From the NCBI RefSeq assembly GCF_003143935.1, contig NZ_QFRX01000001.1, forward strand, positions 8,089,230 to 8,153,229: a stretch of 64,000 nt of DNA, written 5' to 3'. Shown here in pieces: positions 43,475 to 45,498 of the stretch (position 1 is its first letter; the number at the start of each line of letters is the position of its first letter). Made by a program: the position numbers and the translations under genes. The DNA is from Streptomyces sp. Act143 (GTDB taxonomy: Bacteria; Actinomycetota; Actinomycetes; Streptomycetales; Streptomycetaceae). The notes under the pieces are model-generated. The model was given only the letters and a program-made list of their open reading frames with translations. It was not told the DNA's origin and searched no databases.

Positions 43475-43508
43475 ATTTAATTGAGTCGCCCACCCGCGGC
43501 CCGCCTCC

Positions 43509-43514
43509 TAGAGT
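43509..43514 (+). promoter_or_regulatory. Candidate -10 box of the first Y RNA
   Basis: TAGAGT lies 7 bases before G43522, the first base of the outer RNA stem. A TTGAGT at 43481 is too far (22-base spacer) to be a normal -35. The call rests mainly on the match between predicted start and RNA structure. Confidence 0.4.
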
Positions 43515-43521
43515 GAAGAAC

Positions 43522-43658
43522 GTCCAGGTGCGAAGGCAGGACCTACTTCCACTCATAATGGGGCGGCCGCGGGTTCGAATCCCGCCACCGGTACCACGCG
43601 CCGGTGTAGCTCAGGGGTCAGAGCACCTACGTCGGTTCCGCCGACCTGAACTCTGGAC
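43522..43658 (+). ncRNA. Y RNA (YrlA-type) 1, with circularly permuted tRNA-like module
   Basis: A 137-base RNA, paired end to end by GTCCAG / CTGGAC. Inside lies a tRNA-like module in permuted order: T arm GCGGG-TTCGAAT-CCCGC (43569-43585), an acceptor-like stem closed by a loop instead of free ends (CACCGGT, 7-base loop, GCCGGTG; 43586-43606), U8-A9-like TA, and D arm GCTC-AGGGGTCA-GAGC (43609-43624). A further hairpin, GTCGG-TTCCG-CCGAC, follows. There is no anticodon arm. This is the architecture described for bacterial YrlA RNAs, and the Ro60-type protein gene follows. Confidence 0.8.
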
Positions 43659-43670
43659 ACCACAACTTCA

Positions 43671-43694
43671 CGCACTTCCCGGTGCGAGTCTTTT
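43671..43694 (+). terminator. Possible terminator of Y RNA 1
   Basis: CGCAC-TTCCCG-GTGCG hairpin, then AGTCTTTT with a run of four T, 13 bases after the outer stem of Y RNA 1. The stem is short, so partial read-through is likely. Confidence 0.45.
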
Positions 43695-43721
43695 GATCTC
43701 GGGGAGGCGCAGCTCATGGTG

Positions 43722-43862
43722 GGTGCCCGGTGCGCAGGCAACGGCTACTTCTCCGGATCAGAACGTTGCGGGTTCGAATCCCGTCATCGACTCAGGGTCG
43801 GTGTAGCTCAATGGACAGAGCATCTGACTTAGTTCCGTGGCCGACTTCTGATCTCGGGCACC
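43722..43862 (+). ncRNA. Y RNA (YrlA-type) 2, tandem copy
   Basis: A 141-base RNA with an 8-bp outer stem GGTGCCCG / CGGGCACC. The permuted tRNA-like module is T arm GCGGG-TTCGAAT-CCCGT (43768-43784), a 7-bp acceptor-like stem-loop CATCGAC-TCAGG-GTCGGTG (43785-43803), TA, and D arm GCTC-AATGGACA-GAGC (43806-43821). It shares GTGCG[AC]AGGCA, CTACTTC and GTTCCG ... CCGAC blocks with copy 1, while the outer-stem sequences differ but still pair, which is covariation. It ends 55 bases before the Ro60-like gene. Confidence 0.8.
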
Positions 43863-43917
43863 CTCCTTCTGCCGCGCCTCCCTCCGAAAACCTTCAGTGA
43901 ATTCGGGGGAATTCAGC

Positions 43918-45498
43918 ATGTCGCGATTCAACAAGCGAGCCGCCAGGGCACAGCCCACTTCGCGCGTCACCGCCACGGGCCGCGTGCTGCGCACCTACGA
44001 GGGCGGCCGGGGCCGCGAGCGGGACGCGCGCTCCGAGCTCTTCCTCCTCGCCGTCGCCAACTTCGTCTCCCAGCAGACCTTCTACGAGAGCGGTGCCGAC
44101 CGCGACGACCGGTTCGCGAAGCTCGTGCGCGAGCTCGCCGTCACCGACCCGGAGTGGACCGCCGGCCTGCTCGGCTGGCTGCGCGGCGAGGGCAACCTCC
44201 GTACCGCGTCCGTCGTCGGCGCCGCCGAGTACGTGAAGGCACGCCTCGACGCGGGCGCCACCGGCGGCCCCTCCAACCGGCAGGTCGTCGACTCCGTGCT
44301 GCGGCGCCCGGACGAGCCCGGTGAGCTGCTCGCGTACTGGACGGCGACCCACGGCCGCAACGTGCCCAAGCCCGTCAAGCGCGGCATCGCCGACGCCGTA
44401 CGCCGTCTCTACAGCGGGAAGTCCCTGCTGAAGTACGACACCGCGGCCAAGGGCTACCGCTTCGGCGACATCCTCAACCTGGTGCACGCGGCGCCCGACC
44501 CGGACAAGGCATGGCAGGGAGAGCTGTTCCGGTACGCCCTCGACCGCCGGCACAACCCGGACACGGCCGTGCCGCCCGCGTCGAACCGGACGCTGGTTGC
44601 GCACCGTGAGCTGATGGCGCTGCCGGTCGGGGAGCGGCGCGCGGTCGTCACCGCCGAGGGCGGCGCCGAGCGGCTCGCCGCGGCCGGGATGACGTGGGAG
44701 GCGCTGGCCGGGTGGATCCAGGGGCCGATGGACCGGGCCGCCTGGGAGGCGGTGATCCCGTCCATGGGCGCGATGGCCCTGCTGCGCAACCTGCGGAACT
44801 TCGACCAGGCCGGCGTCTCCGACGAGGTCGCCGCCCAGGTGGCGGCCCGGATCAGTGACCCGGCGGAGGTCGCGCGGTCGCGGCAGTTCCCCTTCCGGTA
44901 CCTCGCCGCGTACCAGCACGCACCGTCGCTGCGCTGGGCGTACCCGCTGGAGCAGGCGCTCGGCCACTCGCTGGCCAACGTGCCCGCGCTGCCCGGCCGG
45001 ACGCTCGTGCTCGTGGACCGTTCGGGCTCGATGTGGGGCCGGCTGTCCGACCGTTCGCAGCTCAACCGGGCGGACGCGGCGGCGATCTTCGGCACCGCGC
45101 TCGCGCTGCGTGCCGAGCGCGCCGTCCTCGTGCAGTTCGGCACCACCAGCGCCGAGGTGCGGTTCCGCAAGGGGGAGTCGGTGCTGAAGATCCTGGAGCG
45201 CTTCGGCGACCTGGGCGGCACCGACACCACGGGCGCGGTGCGCCGGCACTACCGGAAGCACGACCGGGTGCTGATCGTCACCGACGAGCAGTACGCGTTC
45301 AGCCACTACGGCGACCCGACCGAGCAGGTCCCCGCCGACGTGCCGGTCTACACCTGGAACCTCGCCGGCTACCGGGCGGGCCACGGCCCGTCGGGCAAGG
45401 CGAACCGGCATGTATTCGCGGGACTTTCGGATGCCGCGTTCCGCATGGTTTCACTGATCGAAAGGGGCCATGACGGTCATTGGCCCTGGCTTGCCTGA
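43918..45498 (+). CDS. rsr: Ro60-type TROVE/VWA protein (Rsr)
   Basis: A 526-residue orthologue of the Ro autoantigen. Residues about 1-350 form the HEAT-repeat TROVE ring that clamps Y RNA and misfolded RNA ends (RDARSELFLLAVANFVSQQTFYE, LLGWLRGEGNLRTASVVGAAEYV, AMALLRNLRNFDQAGV, RQFPFRYLAAYQ). Residues about 360-526 form the von Willebrand A domain with MIDAS DRSGSM (D367, S369, S371). ATG 43918 follows TCGGGGGA. In other bacteria Rsr, YrlA RNA and PNPase form an RNA-degrading complex. The two Y RNAs just upstream are its probable partners. Confidence 0.92.
   Translation: MSRFNKRAARAQPTSRVTATGRVLRTYEGGRGRERDARSELFLLAVANFVSQQTFYESGADRDDRFAKLVRELAVTDPEWTAGLLGWLRGEGNLRTASVVGAAEYVKARLDAGATGGPSNRQVVDSVLRRPDEPGELLAYWTATHGRNVPKPVKRGIADAVRRLYSGKSLLKYDTAAKGYRFGDILNLVHAAPDPDKAWQGELFRYALDRRHNPDTAVPPASNRTLVAHRELMALPVGERRAVVTAEGGAERLAAAGMTWEALAGWIQGPMDRAAWEAVIPSMGAMALLRNLRNFDQAGVSDEVAAQVAARISDPAEVARSRQFPFRYLAAYQHAPSLRWAYPLEQALGHSLANVPALPGRTLVLVDRSGSMWGRLSDRSQLNRADAAAIFGTALALRAERAVLVQFGTTSAEVRFRKGESVLKILERFGDLGGTDTTGAVRRHYRKHDRVLIVTDEQYAFSHYGDPTEQVPADVPVYTWNLAGYRAGHGPSGKANRHVFAGLSDAAFRMVSLIERGHDGHWPWLA

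Follow-up and report, generated by a model that had tools for sequence, protein, structure and literature searches.

Why does a Streptomyces genome carry transfer RNA (tRNA)-shaped modules directly ahead of a gene for a Ro60-type protein, and what kind of RNA are they? We addressed this question in a 64,000-nt window from Streptomyces sp. Act143 (contig NZ_QFRX01000001.1, positions 8,089,230 to 8,153,229 of the forward strand), in which a first-pass annotation had placed two tandem Y RNAs of the YrlA class upstream of a Ro60-type (TROVE) gene. The T arms, acceptor-like stems, D arms and bracketing outer stems it described were all found (Table 1). The two copies, here units 1 and 3, are indeed predicted tRNA-mimicking Y RNAs directly upstream of the TROVE gene, as judged by the protein's TROVE domain, by covariation and by linkage to TROVE across genomes. 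The head of unit 1 is, as read from its sequence, a complete tRNA in permuted order, and the units are inherited together with the TROVE gene. In our view the region is probably an array of Y RNAs that serve the Ro60-type protein encoded downstream.

Permuted tRNA head of unit 1

The Rfam covariance model for YrlA (RF02553) matched both copies, with 43.2 bits for unit 3 and 29.9 bits for unit 1, each below the curated cut-off of 69. A tandem pair of identical tRNA-Asn genes in the same genome scored 41.3 bits with this model (36.9 in a rescan), imitating YrlA through the T arm of the first gene, both acceptor strands and the D arm of the second gene. Because this pair scores the same, we rejected the YrlA score as proof and relied on comparison with relatives instead. 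The assignment to the YrlA class holds for the order of T arm, acceptor stem and D arm, but not in the Rfam sense. The RF02553 consensus is a domain opened in the anticodon loop and lacking an anticodon arm, an arrangement found in unit 3 and not in unit 1.

In a sample of the genus, 69 of 121 genomes had a TROVE match at an E-value of 1e-20, and we compared the regions upstream of 70 TROVE genes, the window's and 69 others. Unit 1 was recognized by pattern in 42 of these loci. Copy 1 had been taken for an ordinary YrlA head, but its anticodon arm is complete. Read 5' to 3', the head consists of the anticodon arm, a 5-nt variable loop, the T arm, the 3' strand of the acceptor stem, the loop ACCACGC, the 5' strand of the acceptor stem, U8-A9, the D arm and A26, with the permutation break falling between tRNA positions 26 and 27. 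Across the 42 sequences, the window's included, 99.2% of alignment cells formed standard pairs (32-47% in slid versions), and 12 of 35 pairs showed double-sided changes compared to 2.5 in shuffles. All cells were paired in the basal stem, where one pair had a double change, and in the acceptor stem, where four of seven did; the upper stem was paired in 96.7% of cells with double changes in three of eight pairs. A covariance model built with the window's row included (R1) scored unit 1 at 166.4 bits (43520-43660).

ARAGORN found no tRNA in the window, and the Rfam tRNA model reached 20.9 bits there, below its cut-off of 29. Once the order had been un-permuted, ARAGORN called unit 1 a tRNA in all 42 loci and in none of 2000 whole-sequence shuffles; 41-42 heads were still called when the joint was shifted by up to 3 nt, and six of the 42 were called in native order. 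As proof of the anticodon arm we rejected this call, which is insensitive: 1662 of 2000 sequences with shuffled arm and variable loop were still called. We therefore used a direct shuffle test and covariation for the arm. Of the 42 loci, 40 have a 5-bp stem with a 7-nt loop containing U33, followed by a variable loop of 4-5 nt (shuffled mean 0.13, maximum 2); the exceptions are L042, with four pairs, and L057, in which the arm is lost. Two of the five stem pairs changed on both sides, from C30-G40 to G30-C40 in six sequences and from A31-U39 to G31-C39 in one.

With L042 and L057 set aside, C32, U33, U36 and A38 were invariant in the 40 loops and A37 was present in 36, while positions 34 and 35 varied. 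The triplet is CAU in the window, and GAU, CUU, GUU, UCU, CCU or GGU in other loci. We take U36-A37-A38 to be a mark for N6-threonylcarbamoyladenosine (t6A) modification. That the arm is kept by compensatory changes, with the U-turn and U36-A37-A38 fixed and positions 34 and 35 free, suggests contact of the anticodon loop with a partner that does not read a codon. A loop that differs among loci (ACCACGC, ACAACGC, TTCGG and others) seals the acceptor end; CCA occurs in the window's loop, yet is not conserved. Identity of the unit 1 loops to real tRNA loops was uninformative (35 of 40, null 35.1), and the best identity of whole modules to tRNAs of their own genome was 0.75-0.79 in the 15 modules compared.

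Companion units and the TROVE gene

The annotation's count of two copies does not hold up as given. Among the 63 related loci having any unit, 34 have three, and in the window the third is a remnant (unit 2) lying between the two complete units. By pattern, unit 2 was found in 57 of the 70 loci and unit 3 in 56; counting L030 and L031, which we recognized by eye, brings unit 3 to 58. Exactly two units were present in 26 loci, one in three and none in seven; one locus (L009) contributed just 292 nt of upstream sequence. A basal frame is common to the three kinds of unit, with variants: 5' CCGGTGCG-AGGC-nCGG-TACTTC and 3' CCGnCGCCGA..GATCTCGG. Outer-stem cells were paired at 99.7-100% in units 1, 2 and 3. 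A TAnnnT pattern matching the candidate -10-like box recurs in 40 of 42 loci at the corresponding distance (-13 relative to the first G of unit 1).

Unit 2, a minimal Y RNA, lacks a tRNA head and measures 68-75 nt as cut. It may resemble the Y RNA of Deinococcus radiodurans. The window's copy has lost its interior: the 32-nt remnant scored 27.9 bits with the unit 2 model (R2), in an alignment that passes over 42 model positions with 2 nt in their place, and L031 has a similar stub. In 57 sequences (56 distinct), 99.0% of cells were paired. Covariation was weaker than in the other units: three of 15 pairs had double changes where shuffles gave 1.4 (a value as high came up in 14 of 500), and these 57 sequences showed no more pair types than shuffles did. 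The unit 2 of L012 folded at z -3.13 as a single sequence.

Unit 3 matched R1 over its full length at 83.2 bits. Its class I alignment held 37 of the 56 sequences, the window's included, and omitted the tRNA-Leu-like rows as well as L053, L068, L076, L044, L061, L071, L074 and L075. Here 98.9% of cells were paired (30-52% in slid versions), with double-sided changes in 17 of 36 pairs compared to 7.7 in shuffles. In this alignment and in that of unit 1, the pairing exceeds what chance would give. All five pairs of the anticodon stem were double-changed, and 95.6% of their cells were paired in the 37 loci; an anticodon arm of the unit 1 kind appeared in four of 55 unit 3 sequences, inside the shuffled range. 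The window's unit 3 folded at z -2.69 as a single sequence. A D arm of the tRNA-Leu type (GTGGCGGAA..GACGCG) was present in 12 of 58 unit 3 heads, several of which carry a long variable arm by eye. Also by eye, unit 3 of L053 and of L076 have unusual D arms resembling those of initiator tRNA (GTGGAGCAG..GCTCG) and tRNA-Glu, respectively.

We placed the type of unit 3 head on the TROVE tree for 30 loci, 11 of them Leu-like. This required nine changes, at least seven of which were forced by well-supported branches. Since the shuffled mean was 9.1, the type of head does not follow the tree. The simplest reading of these sequences is rapid exchange of heads on a stable handle, although the whole locus may instead recombine relative to TROVE.

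The window's protein matched the TROVE domain PF05731 at 51.9 bits (cut-off 23) and was related to the solved TROVE proteins 9kop and 9l5y (PDB, E 3e-27); no second match to it was found in its own genome at E 0.01. The match to VWA_2 reached 24.6 bits against a cut-off of 27. The protein contains the motif DRSGSM, which we take to bear on its VWA assignment. Among 197 genomes of the order, 100 had both units and TROVE, one had units alone (G130), 14 had TROVE alone and 82 had neither (p 2e-39), such that TROVE was present in 100 of the 101 unit-positive genomes. These counts use an R1 match better than 1e-10 and a TROVE E-value of 1e-30; the former was chosen after partial matches at model positions 28-106, as in tandem tRNA pairs, reached 1.3e-10 and weaker. 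In a sample of the class, R1 matches at 1e-10 were obtained in 30 of 296 genomes, 15 of which belong to families other than the window's. Of the 15 loci from these other actinobacterial families, 13 have TROVE within the stretch retrieved, and the anticodon arm is retained in several. No further full-length R1 match above 30 bits was found in the window's own genome.

Table 1. Features of the predicted Y RNA array, with a tRNA gene pair of the same genome. Coordinates are window positions except in the last row; position numbers under remarks are those of tRNA.
Feature	Coordinates	Strand	Remarks
Candidate -10-like box TAGAGT	43509..43514	+	7 nt ahead of unit 1 5' end; sequence only
Unit 1, predicted Y RNA with complete permuted tRNA as head	43522..43658	+	covariance model R1, covariation
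Unit 1 basal stem (presumed Ro60-binding)	GTCCAG 43522..43527 / CTGGAC 43653-43658	+	6 pairs, covariation
Unit 1 upper stem	GGCAGGACC 43535..43543 / GGTTCCGCC 43634-43642	+	includes A.C mismatch
Unit 1 anticodon arm TTCCA-CTCATAA-TGGGG	43547..43563	+	27-43, CAU in loop
Unit 1 variable loop CGGCC	43564..43568	+	44-48
Unit 1 T arm GCGGG-TTCGAAT-CCCGC	43569..43585	+	49-65
Unit 1 acceptor stem, 7 bp	43586-43592 / 43600-43606	+	66-72, 7-nt loop ACCACGC, 1-7
Unit 1 U8 A9, D arm, A26	43607..43625	+	D arm GCTC-N8-GAGC at 43609-43624, with GG
Unit 2 remnant, basal stem alone left	43675..43706	+	unit 2 covariance model R2
Unit 3, predicted Y RNA, tRNA-like head opened in anticodon loop (YrlA arrangement)	43722..43862	+	
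Unit 3 outer stem	GGTGCCCG 43722-43729 / CGGGCACC 43855-43862	+	seen in sequence
Unit 3 anticodon stem	3' strand TCAGA 43758..43762 / TCTGA 43823-43827	+	39-43 / 27-31; covariation
Unit 3 T arm	43768..43784	+	sequence, covariation
Unit 3 acceptor stem, 7 bp, 5-nt closing loop	43785-43791 / 43797-43803	+	5 of 7 pairs with double changes
Unit 3 D arm	43806..43821	+	sequence, covariation
TROVE (Ro60/Rsr-type) protein gene, 526 aa	43918..45498	+	Pfam, PDB matches
tRNA-Asn pair	L007 9734-9884 (G000:C1:7422733-7422883)		possible systematic false positive for YrlA searches

Heads in phages and other families

We examined phages and viral contigs for similar loci. Among the best 80 of 238 IMG/VR stretches encoding TROVE relatives, R1 gave 143 matches at 1e-3, up to five in a row; a few were partial and of the tRNA-pair type, and these contigs may include misjudged host DNA. 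TROVE was carried by 54 phage records, six of which we inspected. It lies inside an annotated tRNA array in BRock, Alone3 and Atuin; in Neville, tRNAs lie about 0.9 kb downstream of it; a lone annotated tRNA is found in VanLee, and that of Kela is over 2 kb from TROVE. Full-length R1 matches were found just upstream of TROVE in BRock (65.8 bits), Alone3 (47.2 and 38.2), VanLee (104.3) and Neville (58.7), and downstream of it in Atuin (57.8), while Kela gave a weak match of 32.2 bits. An annotated tRNA-Arg(tct) of VanLee (L359 2204-2275) sits inside the unit at 2202-2341, and an annotated tRNA-Ser(gct) of Alone3 (L358 2274-2347) sits inside the match at 2268-2415; both fail the Rfam tRNA cut-off. 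In Kela (L362 1729-4165), an RNA ligase gene is directly upstream of TROVE, which is consistent with a role in RNA repair.

We combined viral contigs, other families and units without a nearby TROVE gene into a mixed set, in which 150 of 153 matches were aligned and 138 of the 150 were parsed; L204 was left out of one comparison. Full anticodon arms were present in 67 of the 138 parsed units (shuffled mean 0.87, maximum 4), and all 67 have a variable loop of 4-5 nt. U33 is no evidence in this set because the parser required it. Whole loops equalled a real tRNA loop of their own genome in 57 of 67 cases, compared to 45.4 under a null in which the bases flanking the anticodon were shuffled (0 of 5000 as high). 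Anticodon and D arm agreed on the amino acid in 15 of 67, where 5.7 were expected by chance (maximum 14 in 2000). We therefore rejected the idea that heads are faithful copies of single isoacceptors: they look like tRNAs, yet most are chimeras.

A further unit in another genus (L170 3321-3457) was left unparsed by the script; by eye it has a tRNA-Gln-like D arm and the loop CTCTGGT with CUG. L188 holds a unit-like match beside tRNA-like sequences, with no TROVE match within its 3-kb stretch. In practical terms, none of 20 loci having R1 matches gave a YrlA match at the Rfam cut-off, and two phage units are annotated as tRNA genes.

Possible roles and comparison with known systems

How might such an array work? 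A promoter at the candidate -10-like box would give one transcript, from which cleavage would release the Y RNAs and the TROVE mRNA. Binding to the TROVE ring would fall to the basal stem, as precedent and linkage suggest. A head with a tRNA elbow but a sealed acceptor end could not be charged, and would dock or occupy a protein that recognizes the shape of tRNA. The Ro60 particle would thereby be tied to PNPase or a tRNA enzyme, or that protein would be kept off real tRNAs, and the different heads would act as exchangeable adaptors on one Ro60 handle. The first-pass annotation spoke of binding to Rsr and tethering of PNPase, which such RNAs reportedly do in other species. It further suggested that the two copies may serve specialised partners or sense different stress RNAs. 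According to an excerpt of PMC8394870, the basal stem of YrlA holds Rsr, and the tRNA-like domain is where PNPase binds and where DusA and TruB introduce modifications. PNPase would have no obvious use for the extra surface provided by the conserved anticodon arm of unit 1, which lends weight to enzymes acting on anticodon loops, namely modification enzymes and anticodon nucleases, as partners or decoy targets; they join PNPase as candidates.

Several observations weigh against an array serving the Ro60-type protein. Folded as a single sequence, the window's unit 1 was not unusually stable (z -0.70), and the upper stem is absent from its minimum-energy structure. All three units were missing by pattern at seven of the 70 TROVE loci (L065, L066, L067, L069, L070, L072 and L073), and 14 of the 114 TROVE-positive genomes had no R1 match better than 1e-10, four of these carrying just a piece of a TROVE gene. 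Some Streptomyces have orphan units with no TROVE match within about 3 kb (L158-L161, L163, L164 and L169, about 3.0-3.6 kb into each 6.5-7 kb stretch). PNPase as a partner is borrowed by analogy from Deinococcus. As to their nature, the orphan units have a tRNA-Glu-like D arm and a full anticodon arm, with a -10-like box and a terminator-like hairpin by eye. The seven unit-less loci appear to be of a different kind, with proteins 65-73% identical to the window's. On the comparative evidence, the units of the window are well supported as predicted bacterial Y RNAs of a variant form that does not reach the Rfam YrlA cut-off.

What the heads are for admits more than one answer. They are possibly decoys or tripwires for enzymes that attack tRNA anticodon loops; we hold this tentatively. 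RNAs of the unit 1 type would present an intact anticodon arm on a molecule dispensable for translation, its cutting would spare real tRNAs or alter the Ro60 particle, and the exchange of heads would mirror changing attackers. The covarying anticodon arms, the excess of mixed-set loops equal to tRNA loops of the same genome, unit 3 heads that do not track the TROVE tree, TROVE genes with nearby units in or near the tRNA arrays of BRock, Alone3, Atuin and Neville, and the ligase gene of Kela all point this way. A decoy role has already been proposed for YrlA (PMC7790460, in part), and phage tRNAs are reported to evade tRNA-targeting defences (excerpts of PMC10264068 and PMC11555353). However, units 2 and 3 are without an anticodon arm, the loop test shows nothing for unit 1, anticodon and D arm mostly fit no single isoacceptor, and Salmonella YrlA is not cleaved by its anticodon nuclease, according to the part of PMC7790460 consulted. 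More speculative, and in our estimate rather unlikely in its full extent, is a system run by actinobacteria and their phages in which interchangeable mimics of tRNA share one Ro60-binding handle. Many of the mimics would be whole tRNAs, circularly permuted and closed at the acceptor end, whose anticodon arm works; they would serve as decoys or tripwires against toxins and defences that cut tRNAs, and heads would be swapped in an arms race between host and phage.

The RNAs could instead be a cis-acting leader that regulates translation of the TROVE mRNA, for example by autoregulation. They do lie in the TROVE leader, and between unit 3 and TROVE (43863-43917) a hairpin pairs the Shine-Dalgarno run GGGGGA, a possible control of translation; the minimum-energy fold contains it in 53 of the 55 loci inspected. 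This hairpin was no more stable than shuffles in the window (z 0.08), and orphan units occur away from TROVE with what look by eye like their own -10 box and terminator, making this reading improbable. It is very unlikely that the modules are circularly permuted tRNA genes spliced into working tRNAs. ARAGORN's calls on un-permuted unit 1 and an acceptor loop that begins A-CCA in the window would fit such genes, but the calls are insensitive to the anticodon arm, some closing loops are short (TTCGG or TCG), and the modules are embedded in a covarying Y stem and follow TROVE; CCA is also not conserved, which is not exclusive alone given that it can be added after processing. Permuted tRNA genes are listed for six algae and one archaeon in the consulted part of a 2014 source (PMC3978253), in which bulge-helix-bulge (BHB) splicing joins the halves. 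Finally, tandem tRNA gene remnants mimicking YrlA by accident have next to no chance of being the explanation: the tRNA-Asn pair does score at about the level of unit 3 with the YrlA model, but ARAGORN finds no tRNA in the window, R1 covers that pair at positions 28-106 only and both units at 1-142, basal stems are conserved with compensatory changes and linked to TROVE, and covariation of the basal and anticodon stems refutes the idea.

Natural variants on one handle, with no head, an open head, a full head or several types of D arm, offer a ready series for comparison in laboratory strains of Streptomyces and in their phages. In the literature that we consulted, neither Streptomyces Y RNAs nor Y RNAs carrying an anticodon arm were described, although an earlier report may exist. 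The closest known system is YrlA (RF02553; Salmonella YrlA, PDB 6CU1 in the excerpt of PMC8394870), which has a basal stem, the same order of T arm, closed acceptor stem and D arm, and a Ro60-type gene in the same operon or adjoining. In contrast to YrlA, the Streptomyces units fall below the cut-off, occur up to three per array and include a unit 1 with a full anticodon arm, and the D arm of actinobacterial units can be tRNA-Leu-like, Glu-like or Gln-like. The Deinococcus radiodurans Y RNA and its RYPER complex likewise place a Y RNA beside a Ro60 orthologue (PMC8394870 and PMC7790460, both in part), whereas the window holds an array with tRNA heads. The circularly permuted tRNA genes known from algae and an archaeon (PMC3978253, in part) share the permuted tRNA halves, but the window's acceptor end is sealed, its CCA is unconserved and the module is embedded in a Y stem. 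Transfer-messenger RNA (tmRNA) and other tRNA mimics (excerpt of PMC8394870) also carry a tRNA-shaped domain within a longer RNA, without the sealed acceptor end and TROVE linkage of the window's units. Phage loci encoding TROVE proteins, named 'Ro-like RNA binding protein', resemble the window in having units upstream of TROVE, as in BRock and VanLee, and differ in that several lie in or near tRNA arrays and two of their units pass for tRNA genes.

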